Shown: in pieces, positions 541 through 27,500 of the stretch
How the letters are laid out: each line of letters starts with the position of its first letter
Numbering within the stretch: position 1 is the first letter of the stretch
Assembly (NCBI RefSeq): GCF_000003815.2
Contig: NC_049981.1
Coordinates: 27,303,785 to 27,367,784, forward strand
From: Branchiostoma floridae
Taxonomy: Eukaryota > Chordata > Leptocardii > Amphioxiformes > Branchiostomatidae
Length of the DNA stretch: 64,000 bases
Direction of reading: 5' to 3'
Program-made: the position numbers and the translations under genes
Notes under the pieces: model-generated
Told to the model about the DNA's origin: nothing
Seen by the model: only the letters and a program-made list of their open reading frames with translations
The model's database searches: none

Positions 541-3500
541 AGATGCAGAAGAACATTTATACCTAAGCGTTGCAGAGTCAGAAGATGCAAATGGTAGTCC
601 AGAATACTATTATAATACAATAATCAGTTACTAACGTTGTCTATTATAAAGAATCATATTTCAGCACCTTTCTTTCAGAAAATCAACACCTCCAGTTAAC
701 ACTACTAATGAATATCACATTCCATGCAGTTGGGAAAATATATTTCATAAGAGCATGCCAGTTACAGTTTTATTTGAGGAGCTGCTTACAGAAATTATAA
801 CTTCAGTAACTCAGTATGCTGCTTTTCTTACCCTCCTGCACTTACATGTACACTAAAGATGGAACTACACAAGTCAGGCCATTGTACAATTGATCAGACT
901 AGCCTCGCTCCCTGTAGGGTGAATATTTGCCAGGAGGAGTTTGGCCTTCATGGGTTTTCATTGGTGATTGGTATGTGCAGTTAGGAAGAATATGACTTTC
1001 TGCAGGCTGACTTTCCTGGCTAGTCGTTTACTTGGTTTTGGGCAAATACTAATCTCCCTACCCTCATGGAAAAGCCTAGCAGAAGCTACTTGAAACAATG
1101 ATAAAAGGAGTTGGCAGATGGTCCTTAAATCATTAAATGCATTATCCTTTAAACTGTTATTTCAATCCCTGTTTTCAGTGTACCTCTAGGTCTTCAACTA
1201 TTATATACAGTAATGATATAACGTAACTCAACAAGTAATAATAGTTTGTATCATATGACCATATAGGACAAGATGTCTATGAAGACATGGAGAGAAAGCC
1301 TCAGGGAGGTGGGGGATTTGGTATGTGTTTGATTCAATAAAGTTAACTGGTATTAAAGATAGATAGAATGAATTGTAAGAATTAGTTTGTCGTGTTTTTA
1401 CTAATGTTATACTTATAATCTCATCATAGTCTAAGGCCCCGTTCATGATGCAAAAATCCATGCAAATGCATCTGCATGTGCTTACATCCGACCACAATCC
1501 GAATGCAAACGTTTTACATTTTGCATTCACGATGGCCACGAGCAAACCGTTTCAGATCCAGATGATTTTGCATTTCTCATTTAAAGGTCAGAGGTTGGGG
1601 TCAGGGAACAGTGCTCAAGATGGCTGGAATTTCCCTTCCCAGCTCTTCTGGGTGTTGTTTTTCTAGAAAATAGTGTGTAACCGCGAAAGGAAACGCAATC
1701 GGCCATAAAAAGACTTCACGATGACAATAACGACTAAAACATTCCAATTCCCCGCGCTATGACCCCGCGGTACCCGGATGTAATGCGGATTCACGCCGCA
1801 TTTGCGTTCATGATGACAATTCGCAAATGCGGATAAAAGGAATCCGTTTCAAGTCCACCTCGCGAGGTGGTCCCAAAAAATCCGCATCAAATCCGTTTCG
1901 GAGCATTCATGATGACAAATTTATCCGTATCAGCAAACAATGCGGATGCATCCGCATGAATTTTTGCATCATGAACGGGGCCTAAATGTACTATTATATG
2001 ATCTTGTGAATAGAAACTGATGGAATTTACCAAAAATAGGCCTGACAACTATTGAACAAGCCCAAAGATAAATACAGTACATTATAGAGAATTTGAAAAG
2101 AATGTTATGATGTATACATTGATATATGAATTTATGATGCATAAAATCTGCAACAGTTTGGCACCTAATAGTATACATTGGAAGCCTAATGAAATGCATG
2201 TATTGCCAAAAATTTGATCCAATCAACTCTGACACCAAAGCCTTAATTGTGTCAATAAGATTGGCCTGGGACACTTAGAATGTTACTTTTTAGGGAATCA
2301 TACAGTGACATGTGAAAGCTGACACTGCACTTTTGTCTGGCAGATACCTACATGATAAGATCTACATCAGACTCTGGTACTGATGACGGCCCTCCGCAGC
2401 GACCACCCAAACCTGTTCAACAAAAATCCGGACTGGAAGGGCCAATCATGAGCAAAGAACTTCAGCTTGTACAGCCATCCACTATTATGTCTGGGGTAGA
2501 TATGACATTTTAATATCTATGGGTATCTAATAAGTCTAACAGACCTGTCTGTGATTATGTACATTTAAAAGAAAGACCTTATTGAGGTCATCCATGTTTG
2601 TTGCATAACATTCCTTAGAAGTAGAACTGAAATAAGATGTTTACTTTGAGTTATTTTCTGTTCTAAAGCAAAAAAAGTCCTGAATCATGATTCATATAAA
2701 TCCTAAGTTCTAAAATATCTTAGAACTGCATGTTGGTGTTTTCCTCACCCCAGCTATGGCAGATAGTACTGGGGTCTGAGTCCCAGAAACAGTGATTCAT
2801 GTCCAAGAGTTAAATGTTTCTTGTTTGTTGCTGTTTTCATTTGTGTCTCTGTCCTCTGCAGTCGGGTGAGAGAGTGGTGCTGATCTTTAAAAACCCACTT
2901 CCTGAAGGTGGCAGCTTCACAGTGGAATTTCAAGGCAATAAACAGACATCTGTTGTCACAGCTTCCAAGGAAAACCCATACACCCTGATCCTCAATACCC
3001 CAGGTATACAGTCTGCCTATCAGTAAATAGTTTTGTACTCTTCTGTATTTTTGTTACTATTAGATAAAATAATTTGTAACAAGACTTTTTATTTCACCCA
3101 TCATAGTTTTCCTCCCGGAGTCTAATGCTTGGTCAGTTGGTTGGTTGGGATTTATTAAGCAAAAATACAATATCATTTTTGTGATCCCTAGCCAGAAGAA
3201 TGGCATGGTAATTAGATTTTATAGATTCTTCATCTTAAGAATATAAGGCCCTAATCCTATCGTCCAGCTGCAGATGAAAATACATGCCTTGTCTTACATG
3301 TTTCATCTTGGTTCCCTCCTCAAAGTGCTCTCTATGTTATTTTGATGCCTCTACTATTACGAGAAGTCCTAAAACACTCATGTTTTGCCTGTCCTCTCAG
3401 ATCACCCTCCTGAGACAACACAAGCAGTTGTGAAGTGTGACAGTAAGTTACTTGGGAATGCCACCATGGTATTTGTTAGCAAAATGCGCCGGTTGGAAGA

Positions 3501-6500
3501 GTTGCTCACAGATGTCTCCAAGCCAGTTGAGTTCATGTGTCAGTCCCTGGGTGCTGAGCCTTTGAACCTGAAGATCCTGGACAAGATACTGAGGGACACC
3601 TTCAAGAAACACATGCCACCCAAGGGTCTTGGGGTATTTGGCATCGATCAAGAGAGTGAGGACGAATATGGTAAGAAGCAACAAAAGACAGTAAAAAAAG
3701 AGAGACAAAGATAAAGGTACTAAATTTTATTTTGTTGGTTACTGGTTGCAGCTCTGGCCTATGCTGAAGAACCAAACATTGTTAAACTCTTTTACGCATG
3801 TTTGACTAAATTCTTTACCCAAATCATAGCATTTTATAATTATCACAGTATTCTGCCAAATTTGTTCTTTTTATGAGCTTAAAATGCACAATCTGACATG
3901 AAGGCTCATTGCATTTGTGTTTAAATATGCAACAGGTGTATAGCTGTAAGGAATGCTGTCTACAGTGTTCTTTCCATCCTCTTTCCACCAGACAGCAATC
4001 AGTGAGCAACGTTTGAATGATGAAAATTAGACATTAGTGATCCATGATTTCATAATTGAATCATGATGTAGGATACAAAAGTGACTCAGATTTGATAAAC
4101 AACAAAACATATAATTATGAAATGTTATAAAGATTTGTTCTTTGTGAATGAATTTTTTGACTGATCTTTAAAATACTTCCTCACTTACCAGTCACTCATT
4201 GGTTGCAGCCTGAGGTTTCAAACTACTATTATTATTATTTGATATAATGTGAATATTGTCACTTTTTTTGGCTTGCAACCTATACTGATTGCCATCCAGG
4301 ACAGCAAGATTAGACAAGAATATGAACTTCACTATCCACATATCATAAACCTTAACTCGTTTTCCATATCTTACAGCATACCACCCAGAGGAGTTACCCA
4401 CCCTCATGCACTTTGTTGCCAAGTATGGCCTGAAGGACATGTGTGCGTCCCTGCTCCACTGCCCTGGGGCACTCAACGCCTGCAGCATTGCTAACTGCAA
4501 CAACGACTTTCCACACAACCTCGCTGAGAAATATGGGCACATGGATCTTAAGAAATACATCGAGGACAGGATTGTGAGAAACTGTTATCATCATATCTTA
4601 GATACTGAATACAGTTTTCTTGTCAGATTGTAAATTCTGGAATTTTTGCAGTGTTTTTCGTGGTAACCTCTCACTAGTCAGTACTTAACAAACTGCACTT
4701 ATTTCAACTGCAAACTCAGTCAATTACAAAGATACAGAAAGCTCTTTGTTTTCTCCTTGCCACAAAATTGTTGTGTTTTAGACGAATTTCCATTAACTTT
4801 TAGCACACTATCCCTCCGGCATAATTTGGTGCTCTCTGCACACAATTTGAAGATCACATGTGATCTGTCTTTCATTGTGTAATACTCAATTTATTTCAAC
4901 TTCCAACTCTGCCAAAAGATAAGGATAACTCCTATGTTTTCTCCTTGTCACAGAATTGTAGTGTTTAATATAAATGTCTATTAACTTTTAGCACACTATC
5001 TCCCTGGCATTATGAGTAAAGATTTTGTGTTATTTGGAACCAATTTCATAGCCATCACAGTTTTCTATGAGTCAGATGTTTTTGGACCCCCAAAATTATT
5101 ATGACAGTTTTCTATGAATCTAGATATGATTTAGACCAACAACCTACCTCATGCTGTCCACTTTTCAACTGATAGTTGCTCCCAAAAGCTTTCAGTGTAG
5201 TCAACCTATGATGTAGTTGTTTAAAAACTTGTTCTTCCTTTAAAAATATAGTAAAGCCTCTTTGTTAGATTCTTTTAGACAGCATGATGGGGAGGTGGTC
5301 AAAGACATGTTCTATTTTTTTGTGCTGCATAGGAATACAGCCCATTTATCAACAATGTTTTCTGTATGCTTCTCTCCCCACAGGAATTGGGAGCAATTCT
5401 GGAGGAGGAAATGGGCTCTGGGTACGGATATGTGGATATGGACAAGGACTTATACATGAAGATGACAAGGGTAGACCCTGCATATGGCTACATGGCTATG
5501 GGGATGGGGAAGTACTACAACACACACTCCTATCCCCGAGAAGGGGGATACTGTAAGTTCTACACCATCTGTCTGATCTAAAGCAGTTATGTTGGGAAAT
5601 TGTTATCACTTTATCAATACTAGAATTCAAGGTATGCTGTAGTATTCCATAGGTAATTCCATATTTTTGTACAATTTGAAAAAAGATAAATCTATTCCAT
5701 TCTTTGCCTTGATATGATGCTTTCTGATGGAATATGCATGTTTTCTTGGAGTGACCTAAGGAACTTGAAAATTTTCCATTGTAACATACATGCATATATC
5801 TCTTGTACAGTAGAATTTTTACACAATCATGCATATATCTGTTGCACTGTACAATCATGTAACTGTAATATACATGGATTGCATATTTTGTTGCACTATA
5901 CAATCCAGAAACCATACAAACTTGGTCAAACACCTAACTATTGGAACAAGATAGTCATATTGCAAAAGCTATTTATTACTGCAACTATAAAGTGTTATTA
6001 GATGATGGTCAAACACCTAATTTTACATATAACTCCAAAAAGATATTAAAGGGACATAATGTAGAAATATGGCGCCAAAATTTCAAATGTTCTGAACTTG
6101 AAAATCTCCATTCAGATTGACATTTGCAACTTATTTGTAACTTATCTGCGTCATTTTATCACATTTCTAGTGCTAATTAACAACGTCAAAGTAAGCCGCG
6201 ACCAAATTCACTTACTTCCGGGTAGCCTACCGGAAGTAAGCCGACCGTAGATTTCCGAATCGACCGTTGCGGTCGCAGATCTTCGGAGCGTAGCGGGACT
6301 TTCAACAAACTTCAGTAATGATTCGAGCAAACCACCGAAGGCATTCTAAAGCGCACTTTGGCTCGCCGGCGAGTTGAATAAAATGGCGGACAACTCAAGC
6401 GGCGGAGGGAAGTGCACATATTTCAAGACATCCTCACGGATCAACAAAGTCGTATCCATACGTTGTAAATATTGCTGTGCAGTGTAATGAGGTAGACTCA

Positions 6501-9500
6501 ACTCATTATGTAGAGAAATGGCCGAAAACAGTGACTTTAATTTTACATTATGTCCCTTTAATGTTGCCAAAGCTAATCATTACTACAACTACAAAGTGGT
6601 ATAAAACATAGCAGTCCCTGTTCACTAATGTCAGCTCTAATGGACCTCATCATCTTAAATCATGTCTTTCTCTCCAAAGACAACATTTTCGGGGGTGCAG
6701 GTTCTGTGGAGGAACAACCTGACTATGATCGACCCTTTCCTGTTGCCATACCTGACCTTGATGTTTATGGAGAGACCTTGATGTTTTCAAGTACTGGCTT
6801 CATCAAGGAAGTCCTTCAGGGTCATGAACAAGGTATGATGTAACACTACTCTTTATTGATCCCTGGTCAGCACAAGCACAAGCCACTACCTCAAGATTGT
6901 GTTAACAACATAGGGATCTAAAACTTAAAAAAGTCAAAAACTACAGTTTGAAACATAGCTCTAAGTACAGTGACAGTATAGTGACATCAATAATCTTTGA
7001 GGTAAATTACAAGTGCACGGTATTTTAATCTTGGGAAACACTTCTTGTAATCAGTTTTGTGTAGGTTTTGAAAATCTAGATACCATTTTGAGTACCATTT
7101 TGTCCATTTTTTGATGTGCAATGCAGTACTCTGAGTCATTGCAGTGTAGTATGGTGACTTTAAAATAATTATGACTTCTAACCAATTCCACAGATACACA
7201 CAATGATGTAATTGCAGATATACTTAAAGTAATATACATCTTAAATACAGGCTAAACCAAACCAAGGATGAATGCAGTGTTTTGACTCATCATGTAGGCA
7301 AATTTGAAATCTGATGTAAGCATCACGGACAGGTGTGTGTACAAATTATGTTGTGCACCAGTGTCCTGCATCTTTGTGTGAAAGGTGAGATCAGCACCAA
7401 GAACAAGCATTTGTATAGATTGTGTAGTGCATCAGCATCCTGTTTGTGTAAATGGTGAGTTCAGCACCAAGGACAGGCATGTGTATAGATTGTGTTGTGC
7501 ATAAGTGCCCTGCATCTTTGTGTGCAAGGTGAGATCAGCACCAAGGACAGGCATGTGTAGAGATTGTGTTGTGCATCAGTGTCCTGTAAGGTTGTGTAAA
7601 TGGTGAGATCAGCACCAAGGACAGACATGTGTATAGATTATGTTGTGCATAAGTGTCCTGTAAGGTTGTGTAAATGGTGAGTTCAGCACCAAGGACAGGC
7701 ATGTGTATAGATTATGTTGTGCATAAGTGTCCTGTAAGGTTGTGTAAATGGTTAGTTCAGCACCAAGGACATGCATGTGTATAGATTATGTTGTGCATAA
7801 GTGTCCTGTAAGGTTGTGTAAATGGTGAGTTCAGCACCAAGGACAGACATGTGTATAGATTATGTTGTGCATAAGTGTCCTGTAAGGTTGTGTAAATGGT
7901 GAGTTCAGCACCAAGGACAGACATGTGTATAGATTGTGTTGTGCACCAGTGTCCTGGAGGGTTATGTAAATGGTGAGTTCAGCACCAAGGACAGGCATGT
8001 GTAAAGATTGTGTTGTGCATAAGTGTCCTGGAGGGTTGTGTAAATGGTGAGTTCAGCACCAAGGACAGGCATGTGTATAGATTATGTTGTGCATAAGTGT
8101 CCTGTAAGGTTGTGTAAATGGTGAGTTCAGCACCAAGGACATGCATGTATACAGACTGGGCTTTGCACCAGTGTCCTGTATGTTTGTGTAAATGGTGAGT
8201 TCAGCACCAAGGACAGGCATTTGTAAAGATTGTGTTGTGCGGTAGTGTCCTGTAGGGTTGCATGGAAGGTTGAGTTCAGCACCATGGACAGGCATGTGTA
8301 TAGATTATGTTGTGCGTAAGTGTCCTGTAAGGTTGTGTAAATGGTGAGTTCAGCACCAAAGACAGGCATTTGTAAAGATTGTGTTGTGCGGTAGTGTCCT
8401 GTACGGTTGCATGGAAGGTTGAGTTCAGCACCATGGACAGGCATGTGTATAGATTATGTTGTGCATAAGTGTCCTGTAAGGTTGTGTAAATGGTGAGTTC
8501 AGCACCAAGGACAGGCATGTGTATAGATTATGTTGTGCGTAAGTGTCCTGTAAGTTTGTGTAAATGGTGAGTTCAGCACCATGGACAGGCATGTGTATAG
8601 ATTATGTTGTGCGTAAGTGTCCTGTAAGGTTGTGTAAATGGTGAGTTCAGTACCAAGGACATCCATGTGTATAGATTATGTTGTGCATAAGTGTCCTGTA
8701 AGGTTGTGTAAATGGTGAGTTCAGCACCAAGGACAGACATGTGTATAGATTGTGTTGTGCATAAGTGTCCTGTAAGGTTGTGTAAACGGTGAGTTCAGCA
8801 CCAAGGACAGGCATGTGTATAGATTATGTTGTGCATAAGTGTCCTGTAAGGTTGTGTAAACGGTGAGTTCAGCACCAAGGACAGGCATGTGTATAGATTA
8901 TGTTGTGCATAAGTGTCCTGTATGTTTGTGTAAATGGTGAGTTCAGCACCAAGGACAGGCATGTATAGCGGTTGTGTTGTGCACCAGTGTCCTGCATGAT
9001 TGTGTAGATGATATGTTCAGTACCATGGACAGGCATGTATGCAGATTGTGTTATGCACAAGTAAGCTGTAAGGTTGTATGAATTGTGAGTTCAGCACTAT
9101 GCATAGGCATTTATACAGGTTGTGTTGTGCACCAATGTCCTGTAGGATTGTATGTTTGTTGAGTTCAGCACCAAGGACAGGTTTGTGTTTAGATTGCATT
9201 GTGCACCAGTGTCCTGCATGTTTGTGTAGATCATGTGTTTATCACTATGGGCAGGTGTGTGCACAGAATTTGCTATGCATCAGTGTCCAACAATGTTATT
9301 GTGGACAGCGAGTTCAGCATCATGGTCAGGTGTGTACAGAATGTTTTTGTTGATTGTCAGTAGCTGTGTGAACAAATTATGTTGTGCACCAGTGCCTTAT
9401 ATGTTTATGTGTGTGGTATGTTAAGGGGCATGTCACAACACACCTTTTTTATATGTATCATCAGCTACTGTGTCTATTTCAGCTTCATTGGCATACGTTT

Positions 9501-12500
9501 CTTAACAGCTGTCAATGTTAGAGTCTGTTCTCAGTCCATCACTTGTTTCTGGGGTGATGGCTGGCGCAGGTATATTAGGCAGGGGCCTTGTGGCAAGGCA
9601 GGCTTTTTATCCCTTCACTCTTTCTCTCAATAGCCTTATTGACATGAACCCTAGAAGTGCTCTCAACGTTAGAGTCTGTACTCAGCCTGTCTCTTGTATT
9701 CTCTGGGGTGATGGCTGACGCAGGTATATTAGGCAGGGGCCTTGTGGCAAGGCAGGCTTTTTTTATGCCTTCATTCTTTCTCTCAATAGCCTCATTGGCA
9801 TGAACCCCAGAAATGCTCTCAACATTAGAGTCTGTACTCAGCCTGTCTCTTGTATTCTCTGGGGTGATGGCTGTAGTAGGTATATTTGGCAGGGGCCTTG
9901 TGGCAAGGCAGGCTTTTTTAATACTTTCACTGTTTCTGTCAATAGCCTTATTGGCGTGAACCCCTGAAGTGCTCTCAACATTAGAGTCTGTACTCAGTCT
10001 GTCTCTTGTATTCTCTGGGGTGATGGCTGTAGTAGGTATGTTTGGCAGGGGCCTTGTGGCAAGGCAGGCTTTTTTAATCATGTCAGTCTCTGTTGCCGAT
10101 TTGAAATGTGCTGAGTTTTGGCCTTGTTGCATGGGCTGTGACTGCACCATACTAGCTATTGCTCCATCCTGTTGGGCTGCTTGGATTGTTTGGTGATTTC
10201 TGGCAGAAGGCAATTCATTGGCAGTACTGCTGCAGGTATAGCTATAAACAGGATTTTGAAATGGCACAGTGATGTGACCCATAGCTGTCCTGTTATTTAG
10301 ATTGAGAACATCATTGTTTTGCACCCGATGGTCTTTGATGAACTTTACGATCAGACAGGTGATGAAGGCAAGGCCAAAAAGACTGGCTAATGCAATAATG
10401 AGGATATGGGTAGTTGTGATCATTGGTTCCTTCCTCTTTCCTGTCACATCACTATTTAATAAGCCCCTTGTCACTATCGTGTTATCAGCGTGATAGAAGA
10501 TGGTTTTTATACCAATATGTTCAGAATCTCTTTTGTCACTTTCAAATACAGTCTTGTATTCCAGCTGTTTGATTGTAGCTGCATTAAACATGCTGTGCTG
10601 GATGGTATCATACACTTTTGTAGTTTTGTCCTCAGACCCACTTTTTGCTATGTGTTTGGAAGTCTTCAATGTTGTTGAAGGAAGTATTGGTGAAGCACAG
10701 GGTAATTCAGAAATATTAACTTGTGAGAGTTGCTGTCTCTGTAGCTGATCAGGAGAAGCACAGTAGAAGTGAATGAAATTGTAATTGCGGGTAAGGAAGG
10801 TGGCATCACACTGTTTGCGGCTCAGATATACATGGCTATGCAAGCATTTCATCTTATTGATCAGCCACTGCAATTTGCAGTCACAGTGGAAAGGGTTATG
10901 CTCGATACAAATTTTTACCGTCAGGTGTGGAAGGCCCAGATTACTTTCGGCAATGGATGTAATCTTATTCCTGGACAGATCTATCATACTTAGTTTTGTT
11001 AGCTTTTTTGCACAGGTTTCAAGATTAATATTGGTTATCCTGTTCCGCTGTAAATGAATGAGCATCAAGCCTGGCAAATTACAGAGTGATGTCCACGGAA
11101 ATGTTTCAATAAGGTTCCTTCGAAGGTTCAGGGAGTACAGATTTCTTAGAAGGGGAAAGGGACTTACATTGCAGATTTTGTTGTTCCTTAGATCCAGGCG
11201 AGAAGTATTAGAAGGTATGTGGTCAGGAAATGTGGTCAGTCCACGAGATGGACAATTAATTTTCAAACCCCATCTATGTGAACTAATGCAATCTTTCAGC
11301 AAGACATCACCCCTGCTACTTGTAGCTCTACAAAAGATAAAGATAAAAACTGCAAATAGGCAGCTGACAACTCTCATCTCTCCTGGGATTCAGTCTTTTT
11401 TTGTGTAACCTTTGTCCATACAATGTCAATTCCAAAATATATCAGAGTTTCCGCTGGAAATCTACTATTCTAATCACATCATTTCATTTAAAAAACTATA
11501 CAATTTTCTGGTTTTAGCGCTACTGTTTTTCATGATCACTCATTTGCTTGCAATCCATCTTAACATCAGTTTTTCCCCATTGTGCAAGTTTTAAATGTGC
11601 CCAATTGTCAAGCTTCTATGATTTTTGATAAAGAATTCTCAAAGTGACCTACATGTAGCTTTGTGCTGGATGTGGCCTTCAGAGGTCAGTCGGACTCCTT
11701 CAGGATCTTTGAATCTCTTGTCCTTGAACGTGTTGAACGAGGAAGGCCTGTCTCTTGTGGCAAAACATATCCGCGCACATCTTGTGTATTTCACTGCACA
11801 CTGTATATTTATATGGTTGGGAGACAAATCATGTCTCCAAGAGTGCTGTGTCGTTTTTTTAGAACAATCTGGAACCACACAGAAGATACTTGCCCTGGTA
11901 TCAATCTGACTGACATTACAGCATCCTAATACATGTACATGGCATAGTGCCAGATTTCCCAGATATGTTTTCATAGGATAGATTTTAGAAAAAACAGACA
12001 AAAAAGAGATTGGCTTTGATTACACATGATTGTCACATTTAGATATTTTCTTCATTGAGACAGTACTTTGTACAAGTGCTAGCAGTTTGTATTTTAGAAC
12101 ACAAAGTCACTGCAATTGTTTGTTGAAATTAACCAATATCCAAATTTAATCAGCCCGTTACCAGAAGGCTAAAACTTGATCCTTCACATTCCATGAAATA
12201 TGCATTCTGTCTGTCTTACATGTTTTCAAAGTCAAGTCTCATACTCAAATTATCTTTAGTCTCATAACACAATGTCATAATTTGATTTATGTCATACCTG
12301 TGATGCGAAAACGTTCGATACGGGTGTACCGGACCGGGCCATAACTTCCGTATCAGACCGGTTCCAAAGGCGTATCACACGGGCTCCATTCGAATAAATC
12401 GAACTGTTTCGAGCGGGCCGAGTGTGGCGCCATCGAAAGTTCAAATACCTGATTCAGACGTTGGAACATTACTGTTGCAACACTTTTTGTTCGAGGGCAC

Positions 12501-15500
12501 CAAATTTGTTCAACTTCTGGTGCATTTCGCATCAAAACAGGCCCTAGGGGTTTTCTTATGTGGGTATTACATAATTGAAGTGGTTAAGTCACCAATGCTA
12601 CTGAAATACAACAATTTCTGTTTGGCCTTCGGGCGATCTGACCCGCGGTCGGGCTGATACCTCAGGTGATACGGAGTACACCGTGTTGTTTTCTATATAC
12701 ATGTACATGTACATTGATAACTTTTATTTATGTCATACCTGTGACGCGAAAACGTTCGATACGGGTGTTTCGGACCGGCTGATAACTTTCCGTACGGCCC
12801 GGGGTTATCACACGGGCTCCATTCGAATAAATCGAACTGTTTCGAGTGGGCCGAGTACGCCGCCATCGAAAGTTCGAATACCTGATTCGGACGTTGGAAC
12901 ATTACTGTTGCAACGCTGTTTTTTTCGAGGGCACAAAATTTGTTCAACTTCTGGCGCATTTCGCATCAAAACATGGGTTTTCTCAGGTGGGTATGACATA
13001 AATAAAATACAACACGGTGTATTCCGCATCACCCTCGGTCTCAGCCCTCCCGCGGGTCGGATCATCCGACCCGCGGTCGGGCTGATACCTTGGGCGATAC
13101 GGAATACACCGTGTTGTATTCTATATGTATGATTACTGTAGGATAGCATCTTTTGCTGTACATTTGTGTACATATAATTTGTTCACACAACAGGTTGTAA
13201 AGCATTCCTGCATTCTATGGGTTGCTCTGACATGGTGCAATTCTGTACTGAACAAAAATAATTCCTTTTCTGCATACCTGCTCTGTCCCATGCGTAAATG
13301 TTGCAGCCTGTAGAACTGCTACAAGACAAATGAGTGTTGTACATGCATATGTAGGAGCCCATTTTTTGAGAAAAAGGTGACTTACGGACAGCAGGCAGAC
13401 TTACTGTGCAATCTTTGTATCTTTGTGTCTTATGGGACATATTCATATACGTGGTCAACTGCTGCGTCCTTCTCAGCCTCATTGACATAAATCGGTGAAG
13501 TGCTCTCAACACTAGAGTCTGTATTTTCTGGCAGTTCTGGCAGGGTCCTTGTGGCAAGGTTCTGGCTTTCTTTCACATTTGTTTCACTCTTTGCAGATGG
13601 AGACTTCAAACATTTGTTAGTCACAGCTGAGTTGTGATTGTCTGAGTCTTGAGACAGCTGGTCATGATCAGTTGGTCCATTTTGAATAGTTTGATTGCAA
13701 AGATTTGGGGATGTTTGGATTGCCTGAGTGGGAACATCCCCTCGCATTGGGGGGTCTGACTCATTGGTGGTGCAGGTGGCGACATAAACAGGGTTTTGGA
13801 ACTGCACAGTGTTCTGAGATGGGATAGCAGCTGCTGCAGCTGGCAGCCTGTTATTGGGGTTGCAAGGGTCTTGAAGCTGTCGACATTTGATAAGCATTAG
13901 AATCAGGCAGGTGCCTATAAGGCAGCATAGCACAGTGATGATAATGTCAACAGTTCCAATCACCGGTCCATCACTAGTACCCTTCTCCATCACATCCGTA
14001 GTTCTATTCAGTTCCCCCTCCTTTTTCACCATCACATCAGCAACAGTTCCAGTCAGCACTCCGTCACTCTTATCTATCACAATGTTGACTGAATCACCTT
14101 TGGTCACGGTGATGGAGTTGTGGTCAGTGTCCGAGCTGATAGGAGGCTGAGATGTGCTTTTCTTGATTTCATTGTCACGGTGTAGTATGGCGCTCTTCCC
14201 ATCCGTAAGTTCAGTTGTGGTTGTGTTTTTGTGGTTGGTGATAGGAGGCTGAGATACAGGTATGCTCTTCTGGATGCCATAATGCAGTATGGTGCTCTTT
14301 CCACCCATAGGGTCAGTTGTTGGTTTATGTGCACAGCCTAGCCCAGGGACAGAAATGTTTGAGAATGACAGTGCTTGTAGCTGATTTGGTGAATTACAGT
14401 AGAATTTATTCAAGTCATCAGCACGATGGCATGTTAGAAAACGAGCAACGCATTGTGAAGGGGTGTTGCAAACCATATTCTTATGATGAAGGCCTTGTAA
14501 ACATTTCACCTTAGTGATCAACCAGAGCAATATGCAGTTACAGTGGAAAGGGTTAGAGTCAATGAAAGCTTTTGAGATGTAGGGAAGTCCCAGCTCACTT
14601 TCAGTGACAGATGTAATCATGTTGTGTGACAGATTGATATAATATAGATATTTGAGCTGATTGATGCAAACTCCAAAGTTGACATTTGCTATTTTGTTCC
14701 ACTGTAGATGGATGAACCACAAATGTGGCAAGTTACAAAAAGACCTCCATGGCAAGAGTTCAATAGCATTCTTGCTGAGGTCCAGTGTGTTTAACATTCT
14801 GAGATTTGGGAAATGATCAACAAAACGAATTTTGTTGTTGGACAGATTTAAGTGAACAGTATTCGGTGGTATATCATCAGGGAATGTTCCCAGGGCACGG
14901 CATGAACAGTCAACTTTTATGCTGTTGCGTAAATCAGCATGCTGTTTGATGCAAGATTTTGGCAAGGCTTTGGCCACGCTGCTTGCAGCCCAGCAGACAG
15001 TTGAGATGAAAAGAACAAGAGGGCTGCTGACAACTCTCATCTCTACCAAGAATCTGTTTTGTTATTGCAACGTCTCTCTGAAAGATTGATATTAATACCA
15101 AAGACTATTTCATCTAGAGTTTCTGCTGAAAACTTCAGATTGAGTTTCATGTACATGCATGACAAAAGCACCAAACTAGAAGCATTCTTTTTGCATTTTC
15201 TGGCTACTGTCCTTTAAAAAGAATTGTCAAAAGTGACCTAGCTTTGTATTCAAGGTGACCTCCTGAGTCCTGGTGCTTCAGAAGCTGCCAGTCTGTCCGT
15301 GTTTGTGGACGCCAATCTTGTTCGTGGTGTGTTGAACAATGATGAGGGAATGTCAGGTGCTGGTGCACGTGTCATTGCAAATTGTATGAAACTATTCAAA
15401 AGCACGAGAGACAAATCTCATCTTTTCTGAAGATTTAGACTGTTTCGTAACTTATTCTGAAACTTCTGAAGGTCTGCTCACAAGTTTCTCAACCTTTTTC

Positions 15501-18500
15501 AGTCCACGTGCGTGCATGGCCATTGCATTGCATGATTAACTTACATCAATTTAGATTTGGAATACTTCTACTCATAATCAGTCCATTGAAAGATATTTCA
15601 TCTTATAAAATCAACTGTGTTGGTTCAGAAATAGAAATAATCAAATGAACTTACTTACATGTATGGGGTTTTTCATAATTTGGTTTAATGGGAGATGGGA
15701 TAACATGGTGTACTTTTTCACTGCTAAAACTCACGGCGATCCATGGCTAGTTGTCAGAGAGTGGTCAAGTTTTGATGAATGATTTTCTTATAACTTCATT
15801 TTAATAACATACTTGGATAAGAATTACATTCATATGGTTTATAAACCCTTTATTTTCCGTGTTACAAGCGGCAAACTCTTTGAGACATTTTTGTGATTGT
15901 ACCTTCTGATTTTGTGCTACGCTTGACAGTGTGCCCTAGCTTGGAGTACTTTTTAAATTTTGCTCTGGCTCGTCAAAACTTAATAGGAATCGAATTCTGT
16001 GATATTTTTAGATTAGTTTTCTTTGATAGTAAAATTGTAATTGTATGTACTAGTACTTCTCATCTCGTGAGGAGGGCTGAATTGTTATTGACGGTACGAA
16101 TCATTTCTTATAGTGTAACAAATCTTTGCAGTGTTTGCTCGTCTGCCACCTTCAAGGCTACACTCCCTGGGGAAAACGGTGGTGATGCGTATGTTTTTTT
16201 CTATGATTGACATTTGAAGACCCACATTTGCAGTGTTCTGTGAAGTTTTGTTTCTTATGTGTATGACATTTGTGTGGCTGTTTTGTACAGGTTGTATATT
16301 TAGGGACACGAACCACCAATATCTAGTAACAGGTGACCACAAAATGATTTGGCCTGACCAACATTATTGTGAAAATTACATTTTTTTTAAAAACTGCATG
16401 CAGTGAATATGTGTAATATTTTAATGCCATCTTAGGCTGGGTACCATCTTAGGGCTCCTCCCGTTACATACATTTTGTTGTAGTACATGTATGGCCTTTG
16501 TTCACTCAAACAAAAAGCAAATCCCACCTATACCTGTTGCATGCTATGGGCATAAGCTATGGATGCAATTTAGTTTTTTTTTTGAGGTTTTAATGCTTTG
16601 ATTGAGAAAAAGTTTCCATGACTTTAGGAAAAAGCTGGAAAAGTCTATTTCATTGGGGATATACCACAAGATTTTTTGTTTTGTTTTGTTTTGCTGTTTA
16701 TCTTGTAATTTACTCTTTTGATTGTTCATTGACAGATGTCCATAATTCTCACCAGTTGTCAACACTGTGTCACTCTATTCCACTTTTGAGTTTTGAAATT
16801 TTCCGCTTACCTCTGTAAATAACTTCATCAGGTTGGCAATTTCTTCATATAGTAACTAAAGGTTCTTTAGGCACAACCCACTTATCTGCTTTATCATTCA
16901 ATAGATGTCGCCTTGAAATTTGCATGGATTCCTGTTACTAGTACAAGGAATCTGCATCAATTAGCCAAACAACTAGCTGATTGGCTTTTAAGCTTCAACA
17001 TGATATAATGAAAAGCATAACAGTTTACTGTGTTTAAAAGTCCTTGCCTCATTTAATATAAAGGTTGACAAATGAGCAGTTATCACTGTTCTTTTGTGTC
17101 TCCCTGTCTGCTTTCACCAGAGAATTTCATGTATTGCTTTGAAAAACATTCATTATCATGCAGCTTGTGTGTCTTTTTCTCTCATTAGCCAATCAGAGCT
17201 CTAAGGTTTGATATTTGATGTAAATACATGCGAATAAGCATTTTTTCTTGCACGCAATACCAAAGGGCAAGCCTAATGCTATAATAGTATAGTTATATTT
17301 CAGTGGCTTTGTCCAAAAAAACAATTTTTTTGTTGTTGTTTTTTTACTTCTGGGAAAACATTTTGCATTTTTGTGTTTTTCCAGAAATGATGCCTTTCTA
17401 CTTTCACACCGAATTTTTCTGTTCTTTAGAGGAATGTCAACAATCTTGTCCAATGGCATGCTCACTTTAAGTTATATTTTGGCAGAAATGAAGAAAAAGT
17501 AGAAAGGCAAAGAGAGACAGGCTGAGCTCACACATATGCCAATGTAATATTGTTCTCACAAAATGAAATAGAGACAGTGATTGCAAAAGACTGCAGTTGA
17601 ACATCAACATTCAAATGTAATCAAGTGTTAGAAAGAATATTCAGATGTAATCAAGTCTGTACCAGATTCACACACGCATCACATGCAACATGCATGGCGT
17701 CTTTCTTCATGCTTTCCATGATTACGTAGTGTTCATGAGTAAAACTTCTATACATTTGTGTTCCACACACAGTTACATAATATACATTGTACAGAGTCTT
17801 ATTTCACTGCTACAATAACTGTAACTGTAATAACAGAACAGTTGCACATCAAACAGTTTCTTTTGGTGACAATGATCACTCTTATAGTAGCTGTAGGGCT
17901 GACATTACAGTTGGACCACTCCATAGGATGGCATGTTAAAATACACTAAAACAAGGCTTCAGAAAAGTACTAACCCCAATTTCAATCTTAAAAAAATTTC
18001 TCCACCAGACAGCCACAAGGGTCATCTTAAGTTTGTAAAAACTGAAAGAAAACAGAGGGTTAACCACTTCAAACTCCGAGGAATCCCCGCTCTATGAAAG
18101 AAACCTCACCTTTGACCCCAGTTTTCTCCTGATACCACCAATATGACACAACAACTAAAATCCTTCCGCGCCCCACCAAAACTGCTAAACTGAGCAAATT
18201 TTGACCAAAATGGGAAAGATTAGACCTTGCCTGTTCCTTCTATCCCCAAAAGTCTCCAGGTTGGGCCAAAATTTTCAAGGAAAAAGAAGATTTTAAAGGA
18301 TTTTAAGTCACACCCAAATCGTCTTCCCATTTTGTGCCTTCTACCGCGCAACTCAACTGTGACGTCAGCCCTGTACAACATTAACTTTAAGATTTTGCAC
18401 ATGTCATGCTTAAGTCACTCAGAAACAATGCTTTAGATTTTGTTCTTACAATTCACTCATCTCAATATATCATTATACTTAAAGCTGATTTCTACATTGC

Positions 18501-21500
18501 AACATAAAACCCAGAAAAGTTGCTGTTGCTTTGGAATAAAGTAAGCTATCCCGTGTTGCTACAATATGTTACAATTTCTCAAGTTGTTTCAAGTTTTATT
18601 TATGTTCTTTGTAATGCTGATAATAGATATCATTTGTGTACTGGCCCCCCTTAAAATCAATCAAGTTGAAAAATTGAATGGGCCACCCAGTTTTCTGAAA
18701 TTTCAGTGTATAGATAAATAGAGATATAAAGGAATAAGTTTTAGTTTTTTTAAGATTCATATGTCATGGCATCCACATCTCCTATGAGACATATTGCACT
18801 ATAACAAAGCCTCAGAGGTACAAAAGTCATATATAACTTAGTTCATAGTCTGTTGTATTTGTGTTTTCAGTGATGGTTTTTGAAACAGGTGTTCTTGGCA
18901 GAAGCTTGACAAAAAACAGTTTCTGTTGCTTCACTGTCTGCTGTGAAAGCTTTGAAACATGTTTGTTTGTTGTTGGACTTGGTTGTTGGATAATGTTGTT
19001 GATCTACAGATGCCATCTGCTGCTTCTGACTGTTAAAACATTAAATAAACATCTGCCTTACAGCACTCGGCTACTACTGTAACAGTACTATTTGTGAACG
19101 CTTTTGGTGACCGTGTGATATGCTACATTTTGTATTGGTGGAGTAATCAGTTTGGTCAGTTTCACAGGAGCTGTTGGTCCAACCTGAATCTTCTGATTAC
19201 TTATTTGTTTGGGGACCACTTGAGAAGATTTGTGGGTTGGTCCTTCAGTGGTCAAGCCACCGCTGGCATAGACAGGGTTTGGGAACTGTGTGGTGTTCTG
19301 AGACAGAATATTCATTGCCGCCCTACTCTTAAGGTTACGAAGTTTCTTCAACTGTCTGTATTTGACGAGCTTCATAATCAGGCAGGTGGGGAAGGCCGAG
19401 CTTAGAAAGCTGACCACCACCATGATGATGATTTGGAGGGTTCCAAACATTGGGGAACCATCGGACTCACACTTCTTCATAAGGCATGTGGGAATCAGTA
19501 TGTAAAACTCGGTGTCGGTAACATTACTCATTGGCATTGCATTCCTGACTGCTGTAGTCAGATTTTCAATATCTGTGGTTTTGTCAGCTGGAAGGTGAAC
19601 AGTTTTGTTGACAACTCTGTCTGTGGTAGCCTCTTTGAGCTCAGTGTTATTTAGAGGAAGTACAATGAAATCTTGGTTTAGTTCACCTCTACCAGCTGTG
19701 ACATTCTCACTGTCCAGAAATAACAACAGGGAGGGATTCTTGTATGNNNNNNNNNNNNNNNNNNNNNNNNNNNNNNNNNNNNNNNNNNNNNNNNNNNNNN
19801 NNNNNNNNNNNNNNNNNNNNNNNNNNNNNNNNNNNNNNNNNNNNNNNNNNNNNNNNNNNNNNNNNNNNNNNNNNNNNNNNNNNNNNNNNNNNNNNNNNNN
19901 NNNNNNNNNNNNNNNNNNNNNNNNNNNNNNNNNNNNNNNNNNNNAGAAAGTAGGCATTACATCTATGGCTACATGTATACAAGTCTTGATCACAGGATTT
20001 CAAACATTTCAGCTTTGTAATGAGCCACAATAAGTCACAGTTACAGTGGAAAGGGTTAAAGTTGATGATAACTTTTAAAGTAAATACGTTGATGTAGGGA
20101 AGTCCGAGGTCACTTTCAGTGATGAATGCAATGTTGTTGTGTGACAGATCGATTTGTGTGAGTTTTGTTAAATGTTTGACACAGGTTCCCAGCTCAATGA
20201 TTGATATCCTGTTGTGCTGTAAGTGGATGATTTCCACATTTGGCAAATTGCAGAGGGACGGCCAGGACAAGGCTTCAATGCGATTCTTGCCAAGGTCTAG
20301 TGCATGCAGTTTCCTCAGAAGTGGGAAGTATGTAACATTGCGGATCTTGTTGTGGGACAGATCCAGACGTCCAACATCAGATGATATGTTATCAGGGAAG
20401 GTGGTCAACTCTTGGTATTTACAAACAACTCTTAGACCTTGTGCCAGACTGGATAGTGATTTTTGGTGAAAGACACAATTTTTTGGTAAGGGGTCACCCC
20501 TGTTTTTTGCAGCCCTACTGGCTATAATGGTAAGAACTGCAAGCAAGATATTGACCAGTCTCATATCTTCTGTAGGGATTTAGTATTTTGTGGTTACATC
20601 TTGGTCTTATACAGACTAGAGCTTTTTTTCCATGTACATTCCTGCATATCAAGAGAAGCAAGCCAGAAATGGCTCCTAGCCTCTGGTTTTCTTGCTGATG
20701 TTTTTGATTAATCTTTAGAACATTGAAGTTGCCATTTGGCACCCAGTACTATATTGGATATGAGGTTAGTCAGCAGGGAGAAACTTAAGAATCATTCAGG
20801 TCAAAAGTGACCTGCATGTTAACTCTTGGTCAGTCCTCTTGGTCCTTCCATCAGTTGGAAAGTCACGTGATATTGGCAGATTTCCTAACTTCTATATGAT
20901 CTGTGGAACAGAGTAGAAGAATGTCTTAATGTATTTTAGTAATAAACATTTTTAACTTCTCTCACCTTGTTTCTGCATCAAATATTGTAGGACAAATTAT
21001 CTAGAAAAAACAATCACAGTGAAATTATGTGTCTTTTCTTCAAAATGCTGAAGATATATATGTATAAGCATCAGAGAAAAGGTGGGATCCTTCATATTCC
21101 ACTGTCTCAGGAAAAGAAGTCAAGCCCAACAGGTTACATGTTTAGAGTTAGCTTTTAGACTGGAGAAGACACATTCTATAGTATTCTACATTACACTGTT
21201 TATTTGTTTGTTTGTCTCATTCTATGCTACATGCAATTAACCCTTGGCATGAATTTGCAATAAACTATCAATTACCATATGTTCATTTAATAATGCTACA
21301 TTATATGTGCCCTGGTAGTAGCCATTTTCTTGAGGGTGCTCACAAGTTCTCATTGGAGCAATTTTGCATCTGCTGTACAATTTACACAAAACTTGTACAC
21401 CATATGACGTGCCCTATTGCTATTGGGACACTAAAAGCATATGTCTTTTAGCATTCCAGAACCTTCAGTAAAAGTTGTGGTATTTAGGAACTTATGGTTC

Positions 21501-24500
21501 ACTTGGGAAAGTTCAGGACGACTTGTTGGTAATGGATGTAACTCTCTTTGTAATTAAAATTACAATGGGTGCTAAAATACTGTAAATGCATAAACTTTTG
21601 CGGTGGATTAATGTTTGCGGTTTTTGCGGCGGCCACTTCACTGCGAATTTAAAACCACCGCGATCATGATTAAATTTACATAGAAAACTGAAAGAAATGG
21701 TGTGCCTCTGAAGTGAACTGCAACATGATAGTATCATAAATATTGTCTTAAAGCAGAGCTGCAGATGCAGAAGTGAATTTCTGATCTTTTAACAGATGTC
21801 TGTGTGTTTTTTCAGAGGCAGAGCCTGAGCCTGAAATCTATGATGATCCAGATAAGCATGAGCCAGCCCCACCTTTCAGGGAAATACGCGGACCAAGTAA
21901 ACAGCATTTCATGTTATTCTTTATGTTTATTCAAAGTAGTCTGGCGGTCTGACAGCTTTTGTAGTATTGTATATCATGGAGCCTTGTGATTTAATTTAGT
22001 AATTTTTCTCTCAAAATTCTTGATTTATGCTGATAGCTTTGCAGATATTTGTACAGCCTTATTTTAAGGTATTACTATGTCCAGCGAACTATAAATGTAA
22101 AATGTCTGATTTGTTTTGAAAATCTTCTCGTAGACTTCAGAAAATAACATCCAAGCAGACAAATTTAGGCTTTTACTTATATCTTGTACGCCTGTATGTA
22201 ATTGTGAGTTGTTTTACACAAGTGCACTTTGGCTCTTAAAAGACACATTACAAAATGTCCAAACTGTCTCATGTTAGAAGAACAACTTACATTATGCTTA
22301 TAGAGATAAAGTAGTTCGGAATTGACATCCTAGAATCAATGCATGCACGCTCAGAATAGTATAAAAGTATGTTCATCCCAGCATACTTTACACTGCATGA
22401 TTTTTGCATAAACCTGCAGCTATACAATACAGATCTGAAGAAAATGACATGTCTAAATTGCTGACCGTACGTAAGAAGACCATTAAAACTCACCTTTCTG
22501 CGTAGTTTTTGGCTTTACTATATGGTAAAATTGCTCCTCTAGAAATGCCAGTCTGGTTGGGGGCAAAAGGCGCAGTTGTGATTAATGATGAAATGGAACT
22601 ATTTTTATTTATATAGCTGCCAGACTAATTTGAGATCACGTGTGGCCAAGCCCAAGGGGGACCTGAGGGGGAAAGTCTATACTTGGACTATACCACTAGC
22701 TGCAGCCATGCAAAAGACAAACTTCCAAATATAGACATTTACATGTCCCCTAGAAAAATTGTCTTTAAGTTAATATTTCTTTCACTACAAATTTAAGACG
22801 AATATGCTAGTAATCAGGATCCTGAGGAACAGAAAAAAAATCTTACATTGAATTGAATGTGATCCAGTCTTAAATTCAAAAGATCAGCACATGAATTTGC
22901 TACTATTTTTCCAGGTATCACAAGGCAGAGACATGCAAATTCCGTCAGACAGTCACGTATTGAAGAGCCTCCAAGTGCAACAGAAAAGCGCAGATCACAA
23001 ACACTGCCTATTGGATCGAGTCTCTCATCTGCTGCTTCAGCTGCACCACACTCCTGTATGTCATTGTTTCCCACTACCTACACATCCTCTATGAAACCTA
23101 CAAATAAAATGTGGTGGTGGCGGTGGGGGGAGGGAAGGGGGGGGGGGCGGTCGAGGGGCAAAACTAGCACATGACATTCTACATTCTTGGTGTTATATGT
23201 TTGCACCCTTTTAGACAGTTCTGCACTGCCGGTGTGAATGTCATTCAGCACCAGGAAAAGTGCTGTATGTGTGAATGTCATTGTATCTGTGCTGTCAGTG
23301 GAAATATTGTTCAGCACCAAGGCAGTGTAATTTTCCTTCAGAACCTAGGACAGCATCTGTGCTGTCAGTGTGAATGTCTTTTACCCCCGAGGACAGCATC
23401 TGTGTTGCCAATGTGAATGTCCCTCAGCACCAAGGATAGCGTCTGTGCCCTCATTGTGAATGTCCTTCAGCACCAAGGATAGCATCTGTGCTGTCAGTGT
23501 GAATGTCCTTCAGCACCAAGGATAGCATCTGTGCTGGCAGTGTGAATGTCCTTCAGCACCAAGGATAGCGTCTGTGCTGGCAGTGTGAATGTCCTTCAGC
23601 ACCAAGGATAGCATCTGTGCTGGCAGTGGAAATAACCTTCAGCACCAAGGACAGCATCTGTACTGTCAGTGTGAATGTCCTTCAGCACCAAGGATAGCGT
23701 CTGTGCTGGCAGTGTGAATGTCCTTCAGCACCAAGGATAGCATCTGTGCTGGCAGTGGAAATAACCTTCAGCACCAAGGACAGCATCTGTACTGTCAGTG
23801 TGAATGTCCTTCAGCACCAAGGATAGTGTCTGTGCTGTCCATGTGGATGTCCTTCAGCACCAAGGACAATATCTGTGCTGTCTGTGTGAATGTCCTTCAG
23901 CACCAAGAACAATATCTGTGCTGTCAGTGTGAATGTCCGTCAGCACCAAGGATAGCATCTGTTCTGTCAGTGTGGATGATCTTCAGCACTAGGAACATAG
24001 ATTGTACAGTTAGTGTCTTTCAACACTAGAAAAATGTACATATATATCTAGGGTTCTGCAACATCGTGATGTGAACACAAAAAAAACAAAGAGCAGCTAA
24101 TCCTTTTTGTTTGGCTTAAAAAAAATTAGTAGACAATAAGTCAATGTTGTATTGGTTCAAAGTATACCTAAGGGATATTAATTTTCATTTCGTTTTGTAA
24201 TGACCCTTTTGGTTTACTCATTCTCACAGCTGGACAGGATGACTTGGCTATGTACACTTCAGGACAGCAGGAACTCATCAAGCTACAGAAGGAGGTGAAG
24301 GCAGGCATATACACAGTGGATGAGGCAGCCATCATATTCAAAGAATGGCAGATGAAAGAGAGAGATCGAGCCATGTCATTTGCCCAGCAGCAAAAGGAAA
24401 TGGACAACTTGCGTGCAAGTGTTCAGCGCAGGGCAAAGAAAGGTCAGCCCGAGGTCGGCCCGCCCATCCCAAAGCATGGGAGAGATGACGGGATATATGG

Positions 24501-27500
24501 CAGGGTGCTACACAAGATCAGAAGAACCCCTAGCTATGAGGGAGGGCAGCAAGAAGCATTGAGCAAGCAGCAGAGAAAGGTATGGATCAAGTAACTGTAA
24601 CGGTCTGGATACAACTCATGTGCAGTACTGTACTAACTTTTACTTTGTGAATTGATACTCTAGAGTCTAGACTTTAATGCTCTAGACTTAATTTTTCCTG
24701 TTTTAAAAGTGTGCATACAAATATGAATTTTAATAGCCTTATCCCATGTATCCTTACCTGTGCTTTTCTGACCATAGTTAACATGCATTGGCATAATACC
24801 GGTCATAAGCCTTATACCGGTCGATTAAAAATAGTGGAACTTAAAGAGATCTACACATGCAACAATAGTTATTTCTGAGGTATGCACACTTCAGACATCT
24901 AGGTGTCCAATACATAATTTACAAAGCATCGATAACAATGCATTCGAAGATAACAAGGCCAAAAGTTTTCAGGTCATTTTCGGGGCAGGCGAGCTCGTCG
25001 TGGGACAAACACACGTCACGTTCATCGCCAGATTTGTAGATAATAATCACATGTGCTCACGGCACAAGACGAGCATGATTCAACAGCAATCTTGAATTTC
25101 TTTTGGTGACCTACAACTCGTGTAAAAGTGTGAGGAACCGTTGCACAATAGCCCGGATCTACGGCTGAATGGGTCAAATTGAACGTACGCCGCCATTTTC
25201 CCGCCATTTTTAATGCTACGGCCAGCAGTAAAGTTTTACGTCATAGCGGTTGTGACGGACCAAAATTAAATGAAAATTCTTGTCAGCATACGCCCATTTT
25301 TTCATGACTTTTTGTATGCTCATGCAGATTTTTGTTTTGTGCAACTACTAACAGGAAAGAAAGGAACAACAGAGGATGGATAAAGGTACATAGCGGCTGT
25401 TAATTGTGCCGTGTTTCGTTCGACCGGTATAGTACACCCCCTTCCAACCACGCGCCCGTTCTCCGTGCAATTCCGCGGTGTGTTCCAATTACGATATTAT
25501 GTTTTTAACAGGACCAGAGAGACAAAATAATTTACACAGAAGAAGTGGCAAAGGTAAGCTGTAACAGCAACATGTAACTGGAGAAAATGATGCTTTGATC
25601 ATTTGCCAAATTAGCATTGCTTGAGAAATTGCAGTAAACCGACCGGTATTATGCCAATGGATGTTACATACATTATTAAAAATATCAAAAATGATGTCTG
25701 ACAAAGACTACTATTGTTGCTTCATTTTTGCTAGCTTGTTTGCTTGTTTTGTCATCACATACAGTATTGTTTTGTGTTTTAATATTCATCCAGACTCCAG
25801 GTAGACCTCCTTCTTCTAAACGACCTGGTGAAGGGAACAGGGAGAGCACACTGAGTAACAGTAGTATGTAGCATTATTTAATCTTTTCATCATCATGTAC
25901 AGTGTAACATATAATGAAGTTCTCACTTTGCAAGGAAATGCACAAGTGGCAAATTGAAAGTAGATTTCCAATAGCAAGATTTTATTTGTTTTTTTTGTGC
26001 AAACATGTAACTTCTGTGGCAATAGGGTGTTCTAGGTGGCTGCAAAGAAAGATCTTGCTTTGTGCAGGTTGGCTTACCTTTGCCGTAGGTATTTGGTCAC
26101 AGTGCATTCTGGCACCTGGATACCAGGTGAGTAGGCCAGTCTTTCACACCGGTACAATCCCGAAGTGTTACACCAAAAGGTGCAACCCTGAATCACGATG
26201 ACAGACATCATTTAGGTGCGATAAAACTTGCATTGCTATTTCAGGCTCCTCCTCTGGTGGATCGAGGCACAGTGTGATGAGCACTGCTAGTTTGGACAGC
26301 GGCATGGATGTGCCGGTGAGTCCAGCACATTGATGACACAAATTGATAACTATAATGACTCAGCAAAAGGACAGAGACTTTTTATATGGTCATCTTCACA
26401 TTTACACATGAATAATAACAAGAAGTATCTAGATGTAACTGAGTGATGGGTCCTGGAGGCAGACTTCATATTAAGACATTTTAAAAGTTAGTTAATGTAG
26501 TAAGAAGGTCTCATTTCATTTCACTGATATTGAATGTCTTCATATCATTTTGCATCCAGTTTGCATAACATTGTTGTATTTTATATCTGCTGCTATGCAC
26601 ATACCAATTTCTTTTGATTTCTTGTTTGTCACAGCCAGCAGACATTCCTGAAGAGACCCCACCTCCAATTCCCCTGCACATTCCTGTGAGTACAATCATC
26701 AGTCCAAAACTATGAATGTGGAATGATTCTATAAACTTTAGGATTCAGTGTGTAGATATCTTAAAGGCAGATGTCTCCTACTATGTTATAACTGAACAAA
26801 GGAATACAATATTTACTACACATTATAATAATTACTTTTTGAAGTCTTAATCTCTCAATTGAGGGTGAAATACAGGAAATCTGTTTGGAATTTCATCACT
26901 TACATGCCAGATCAATGTTTTCCTTGCCAGTGGTTGACCCCTGAAAAAGGGCTATGGTTTGCAGGTTGATGCGACAGTCAGTTGAATAATTGGAAACATA
27001 ACATTTTTTCCTAGGAATAAAGACTGAAATAAAGATGGCTTAATATAGAAGTTGTTTACTCTAAGATGACATGACTAAGTCTTCTTTCATTCTCTTAGAG
27101 GAGACCCCGGCCCCTGTCTGTGAAGTTTGATGATGACTTCATAGCCAGGCCTGTTCCCCCTCCCCCGGTTAGTAAGCGTCCCCTGCCCAGGGAACCTCCT
27201 TCCCCATCTGTACCTGTAAAACCAGGCCGCCTCCAACCAAGACACACTGAACCAGATATGAGTCCAAGGTAATCATTGTTCAATCCCTGTTCTTGTAGCC
27301 TTACGAGTATTAACACAGTTCATTAACAACTTTGAATAGTTACTGTGACTCTGATAATACATTGTTGACAGAAGACTACTTTTTCCTGCATCCTTGTCCC
27401 ATTCATGTGAGCACTGACATAAATAAAGCAAAGTGACACTGTGTTGAACTGGATGCTCTGCATTTGATTTTGAAACGTATCAGAATATGAGAAAATGAGA

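Follow-up and report, generated by a model that had tools for sequence, protein, structure and literature searches.

The stretch of DNA analyzed here, 64,000 nucleotides of contig NC_049981.1 of the lancelet Branchiostoma floridae (hereafter, the window), carries on its plus strand a gene of the BCAP/PIK3AP1 family of phosphoinositide 3-kinase (PI3K) adaptors. One intron of this gene (6833..21815, plus strand; 14,983 bp) contains three single-exon genes on the minus strand, termed LRR-A, LRR-B, and LRR-C, which encode leucine-rich repeat (LRR) transmembrane proteins and have their whole coding sequences inside the intron. At the level of the sequence, the nesting of three receptor genes in one BCAP intron is confirmed as real.

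The host gene and its long intron

By picking stretches bounded by AG acceptors and GT donors, we assembled 16 coding exons of the host gene on the plus strand within the window (543-27817), which, when spliced in silico, yield a single open frame of 780 codons with a stop at 27817. The exons form two plus-strand blocks with AG/GT junctions and one open frame, namely, a 5' block (exons 1-8: 543-593, 1267-1320, 2344-2495, 2862-3003, 3401-3670, 4377-4573, 5384-5552, and 6701-6832) and a 3' block (exons 9-16: 21816-21896, 22915-23055, 24230-24579, 25794-25863, 26245-26315, 26635-26685, 27099-27268, and 27574-27817). The 5' block (543..6832), which precedes the long intron, encodes a DBB domain (PF14545, E 2.4e-29 in the Pfam search), an ankyrin-like stretch, and the motifs YEDM, YVDM, YMKM, and YMAM, and it matches the PIK3AP1 structure PDB 6sws (E 3.4e-5). 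The 3' block (21816..27817) encodes a helical-looking stretch, a proline-rich tail, and the stop; it gave no match of its own in the Pfam search, and it presumably resembles the C-terminal region of vertebrate BCAP. A TIR_3 domain (PF18567, E 3.6e-14), described in the excerpted text of PMC9440496 as the TIR type of PIK3AP1, lies outside the window, 1.5-2 kb upstream on the same strand, in a frame (L012:7978-8529) for which the nearest structure is the PIK3AP1 TIR (PDB 5for, E 2.6e-6). This frame is putatively the N-terminal part of the host and would be spliced to the window exons.

YxxM motifs occur six times in the 780 codons, against a shuffle mean of 0.91 (YGHM lies within the ankyrin-like stretch, and YGYM and YMAM overlap), and the counts of SH3-type motifs were 5 versus 1.42 and 8 versus 1.36 in shuffles. 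The DBB and TIR_3 matches, the PIK3AP1 structures, and the YxxM motifs indicate that the host is a BCAP-family adaptor, thereby bearing out the initial annotation, which had read it as a plus-strand PI3K-adaptor (BCAP) gene. The likeness to vertebrate PIK3AP1/BCAP lies in the TIR_3 and DBB matches to PIK3AP1 structures and in the YxxM motifs, and is thus a likeness of domains and motifs; as a difference, ankyrin repeats of the host gave only a weak match (Ank_3, E 0.082, under the cut-off).

The remaining 14 host introns in the window measure 305-1,214 bp, the long intron being twelve times the next longest. Intron phases match across 6833-21815 (1/1), which is weak evidence alone, because most introns in the host are phase 1. 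The proposal that 6833-21815 is a single intron held nonetheless, since the 16 exons make up one open frame with matching phases.

The nested receptor genes, their second copy, and their family

Six-frame reading revealed long minus-strand frames in three groups between 9.5 and 20.6 kb, with the longest reaching 604 amino acids (aa), whereas no frame exceeded 206 aa when the bases of the intron were shuffled 100 times. LRR-A (9575..11389, minus strand; Met at 11377) is this 604-aa frame and encodes LRRs, a transmembrane (TM) segment, and a tail of 52-aa repeats, each of which holds one RPLPNIP. LRR-B (13430..15061, minus strand; Met at 15040) is intact (frame 543 aa, gene 536 aa), and its TM segment is followed by a 152-aa tail with NPVY, RTLPELP, YVNE, and VYEYVP. 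LRR-C (19088..20579, minus strand) is a single-exon gene in two pieces that flank a 198-N gap (19747-19944) and an adjoining frame difference. In the Pfam search, LRR_8 was matched by A (E 2e-11), B (E 1.4e-12), and the N-terminal piece of C (E 7.8e-12), the cap models LRRNT and LRRCT were matched in A only (LRRNT there below its cut-off), and no TIR domain was found in A, B, or C; searches of PDB and NCBIfam with LRR-A and LRR-B returned general LRR matches only. Signal-peptide-like, LRR, and TM segments (the first and last called by hydropathy only) lie in one frame in A and B of the window and in C of a second copy of the locus, described below.

The tails differ in their condition and share part of their motif content. 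A 156-bp (52-codon) minisatellite (9518..10078, minus strand) lies mostly inside the coding frame of the LRR-A tail, where it multiplies the SH3-type motif RPLPNIP; among its three full copies, nonsynonymous differences per site are fewer than synonymous ones, both counts being small. The LRR-A reading frame changes at a run of A in the fourth tail repeat (near 9608) and terminates shortly afterwards; the repeat itself goes on in another frame, which in turn reaches a stop further along, so LRR-A is without the YVNE...VYEYVP end seen in B. NPVY is present in all three tails, SH3-type +xxPxxP in A (RPLPNIP) and B (RTLPELP), and tyrosine motifs in B and C. YxxM was observed 0 times in these tails, which says little because only 0.03 occurrences are expected by chance. 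Of the initial description of three intronless, paralogous, antisense LRR-TM genes, the orientation, paralogy, and single-exon structure thus stand, whereas A lacks the C-terminal end of B and C is not one frame in this copy.

At the very end of the same contig, a 35-kb segment (C3:34212535-34247348) repeats window positions 13214-46356 in inverted orientation, interrupted by gaps and differing in length in places. Identity to the window is 88-99.8% in the main blocks and close to 96% in most of them; LRR-B is adjacent to the contig end. We regard this second copy as probably the unmerged other haplotype, which is the simplest reading, the alternative being a duplication. It holds host exons 9-16, LRR-C, and LRR-B in the same order as the window, with seven of the eight 3' host exons recovered by tblastn (96-100%) and all eight by blastn (94-99.6%), although indels in exons 9 and 14 kept the script from placing their splice sites. 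In this copy (at C3:34220001-34247348), LRR-C is one 496-aa frame, and LRR-B is open, with an ectodomain 97% identical to that in the window. Because host exons 1-8 and LRR-A lie outside it, the second copy alone fails to show nesting from both sides, and, being probably the other haplotype, it is silent on long-term retention. It can serve as an allele, although it is also liable to distort gene counts.

The LRR ectodomains are conserved. When those of B and C were pooled and compared between the window and the second copy, the ratio of nonsynonymous to synonymous differences per site (pN/pS) was 0.36 (p 0.015; singly, p 0.091 and 0.11). Among the paralogues, ectodomain dN/dS was 0.26 (A-B), 0.25 (A-C), and 0.37 (B-C), with synonymous sites near saturation, and the stalk and TM-tail regions gave pN/pS of 0.58-0.67, with intervals below 1.

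A search of the lancelet's own genome (513-Mb assembly) with the LRR-B ectodomain yielded 1,863 first-look candidates, only 150 of which were scored. The family thus comprises at least 150 scored matches (largest E 8.1e-12). A, B, and C of the window together with C and B of the second copy account for five of them; the others are spread over many contigs, often in clusters, and no internal stop was listed for 145 of the 150. We fetched 35 matches which, together with A, B, and the second-copy C, gave a sample of 38 members; a TM segment was called by hydropathy in 32 of these, A, B, and C included, and the cap cysteines and LRR residues are invariant across 11 aligned members. Tail motifs recur in this sample, i.e., RPLPDLP and EYAEIHDYETVP in member L043, YEDM and YEEI in L032, EYEEIP in L041, NPVY in A, B, C, L024, and L049, and NPIY in L042 and L049. 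The tree places A, B, and C among genes of C9, C18, and C19 in a group of ten rows (support 94/84; internally unresolved). Forcing A, B, and C together gave a log-likelihood 0.61 above the best of the free search (p-AU, approximately unbiased test, 0.557), and a single in-place radiation of the three is possible.

Minisatellite arrays and other features of the window

Within the BCAP gene or shortly downstream of it, three minisatellite arrays lie on the host strand, at 7319-9228 (74-bp unit), 23323-23989 (43 bp), and 28615-28987 (43/87 bp). All three have in common a 17-bp core, TTCAGCACCNNGGACAG, which in the first two arrays is less variable than the other positions of the unit and which we take to be nearly identical to the REST/RE1 element. 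This core was matched 52 times in the window at ≤3 mismatches, against 1.45 expected, with nearly all matches in or at the edges of the three arrays. The 43-bp array near 23.3 kb differs in length in the second copy of the locus. The 74-bp array (7319..9228, plus strand; ~26 copies) lies downstream of LRR-A, carries the miR-2060/RE1-like core, and is probably incidental. It contains 9 exact and 11 one-mismatch copies of a 20-mer named bbe-miR-2060c-3p, exact copies of which number 338 genome-wide (164 and 174 per strand; reversed control, 0); among the copies listed, roughly the first hundred, spacings of 43 bp or a multiple thereof are frequent. Because this 20-mer, which holds the RE1-like core, is dispersed genome-wide, REST silencing of the locus was rejected and no locus-specific silencer is claimed.

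The 74-bp array gave ten matches to the Rfam family mir-2060 (RF03662; best E 1.2e-5), scoring 36 bits versus a gathering score of 54.5, and no clearly stable hairpin was found: a single unit folds little better than shuffles (z -1.26), and the best-phase consensus unit reached z -2.33 versus simple shuffles. The two other arrays gave no Rfam match to mir-2060 at E up to 1. The printed Rfam consensus itself consists of two copies of one unit, identical at 40 of 41 positions over the part compared. We read the array as a dispersed minisatellite that gives small-RNA reads rather than as a locus-specific microRNA, and the Rfam mir-2060 family may not be a genuine microRNA.

Two further repeats touch the intron. 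A 440-bp repeat is present at 17896-18370 and 46864-47300 (81% identical over 17931-18372 vs 46864-47300), and is probably a mobile element, because, in the second copy of the locus, the sequences on either side of its first occurrence are matched but the repeat itself is absent; between LRR-B and LRR-A lies a ~430-bp tandem duplication (12277-13126, 79% identity). The window has other genes as well: one for a WD40 protein at 40945-41907, for which THOC3 was the best profile (below its cut-off); a minus-strand frame of the Y_phosphatase3 type at 44034-44732; and, at 54037-55296, one for a 419-aa protein in a single frame that matches MGAT4 weakly.

Interpretation of the nesting

The host/nested gene arrangement is a known, usually neutral feature of genomes. 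We give a probability of roughly 0.8 to the reading that the LRR genes are independent receptor genes nested neutrally in an enlarged BCAP intron, in an ordinary arrangement of this kind. One intron of a lancelet BCAP gene (a TIR_3-DBB PI3K adaptor) would have been greatly enlarged around receptor genes, and its opposite-strand occupants would be members of a very large single-exon LRR-TM receptor family, each of them an independent gene expected to have its own promoter. The predicted receptor design consists of a signal peptide, a short capped LRR ectodomain, a variable stalk, a TM segment, and an adaptor-binding tail, which Src-family kinases may phosphorylate if the analogy with amphioxus BbLcLRR holds; PI3K docking at the host YxxM motifs would serve signalling generally rather than these receptors specifically. 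Because the receptors belong to a large dispersed family, their intronic address needs no special cause. According to the excerpted text of PMC3786989, nested genes make up ~6% of fly genes and are frequently antisense, and surveys quoted there found no significant expression correlation for 109 human and 752 fly host-nested pairs; of 19 vertebrate nested structures that frog or chicken lost, PMC3933685 gives 12 whose nested gene codes for an LRR protein.

Known systems resemble the lancelet locus in arrangement and differ from it in content. ECM2, ASPN, OMD, and OGN, the genes of the CENPP cluster, all encode LRR proteins, which, in contrast to the lancelet receptors, are secreted matrix proteins in an unrelated host. 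The likeness is that these four different-strand genes are nested in one host (PMC3933685, Table 1). LRRTM1/2/3 are likewise LRR-TM genes on the opposite strand of large introns of an unrelated host, alpha-catenin (CTNNA), but with one LRR gene per host and synaptic products, whereas the lancelet locus has three genes of a different, lancelet family; no lrrtm genes were found in lancelets, as stated in the portions of PMC3933685 cited here. The gene 2mit, in the 11th intron of Drosophila tim2, is also an opposite-strand LRR-TM gene with cytosolic interaction motifs, differing in being a single gene of the nervous system; the same excerpts of PMC3786989 describe its nesting as present in honeybee and Drosophilidae and not in the moths and butterflies examined, and report no evident functional relationship between 2mit and tim2. 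Finally, BbLcLRR, an inhibitory receptor phosphorylated by Lck, is a lancelet LRR-TM receptor with the tail tyrosine motifs DDYATV, HDYSEV, and HDYDDP, to which HDYETV of family member L043 is akin; it differs in its 699 aa, its WSC domain, and the absence of its tail motifs from A, B, and C, and the text of the paper does not contain the word "intron" (PMC8211107).

Several observations weigh against neutral nesting of working receptor genes. Between the two copies of the locus, stalk and tail appear unconstrained (pN/pS 1.11, p 1.0, with few changes), LRR-A has lost part of its tail, and LRR-C is broken in the window copy. The flanks of A, B, and C are without clear similarity (matches of 13-26 bases only), and a clade of the three is compatible with the tree test without being demonstrated by it, so that one arrival followed by copying in place and several arrivals are both plausible. 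The joining of the two host halves follows from sequence rather than from complementary DNA (cDNA), and we infer, rather than observe, the expression of the LRR genes, host splicing across the intron, the receptors' own promoters, and their function.

To the initial annotation, the nesting suggested the idea of coupled regulation by transcriptional interference, or of co-inheritance of receptor and adaptor. On this reading, the intron would keep the LRR set and the PI3K adaptor that it uses co-inherited or cross-regulated, through shared chromatin or antisense interference. A tyrosine-kinase/SH3 vocabulary is indeed common to the host (YxxM, SH3-type motifs) and the LRR tails (NPVY; RPLPNIP/RTLPELP), the tail of family member L032 itself has YEDM while other tails end in EYxxI/VP-type motifs, and the order of C, B, and the downstream host exons is kept in the second copy. 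However, this vocabulary is generic and makes a link possible only, the second copy, as probably the other haplotype, carries no word on long-term retention, and relatives of A, B, and C are scattered over many contigs, apart from BCAP. Nor do A, B, and C have a Pfam TIR domain to pair with that of the host, and their lack of YxxM equals the chance expectation. Coupling is therefore unsupported, given the large dispersed family, the quoted surveys without expression correlation, and the 2mit precedent, and we consider it unlikely. Its more elaborate form, in which receptors without a PI3K motif would be kept inside the gene and co-expressed in immune cells with the adaptor that supplies it, bridged by SH3/SH2 proteins binding the tail RPLPxxP and the proline-rich BCAP tail, appears less likely again.

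It is equally doubtful that the LRR frames are decaying copies rather than working genes. The shifted and shortened tail of A, the broken C of this assembly, and the unconstrained stalks and tails would all suit decay, but the B frame is uninterrupted in both copies and the C frame in the second, the pooled ectodomain ratio indicates constraint, and the aligned members do not differ in their cap cysteines and LRR residues. We give even less credence to the two exon blocks being two different genes, with the LRR genes lying between them. This possibility draws on the want of cDNA for the junction, on the exceptional length of the intron, and on the right-hand block being without a Pfam match; against it, the junction is crossed by one open frame in matching phase, and the exon 9 frame, read back to the preceding stop, has no ATG, so that a separate 3' gene would need another 5' exon (no systematic search for one was made). 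The extremely improbable idea that the array next to LRR-A serves as a cluster of microRNAs that are transcribed along with the host and silence LRR-A via complementary sites in its 3' untranslated region, was dropped because the 20-mer is present 338 times in the genome, and because of the poor fold, the sub-threshold Rfam score, and the duplicated Rfam consensus, even though the host strand carries the named 20-mer, the first AATAAA/ATTAAA of LRR-A lie beyond the array (at 7029 and 6857, with weaker TATAAA at 9453 and 9115), and the small RNA is lower after poly(I:C) in B. belcheri in the excerpts of PMC5650284.

A dispersed lancelet minisatellite in place of mir-2060 would affect published lists of immune-responsive amphioxus microRNAs. 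With its three genes, the lancelet case joins the known tendency of LRR genes to lie antisense in introns, and the locus draws attention to a large family of single-exon LRR receptors, in which some tails carry kinase-pathway motifs.

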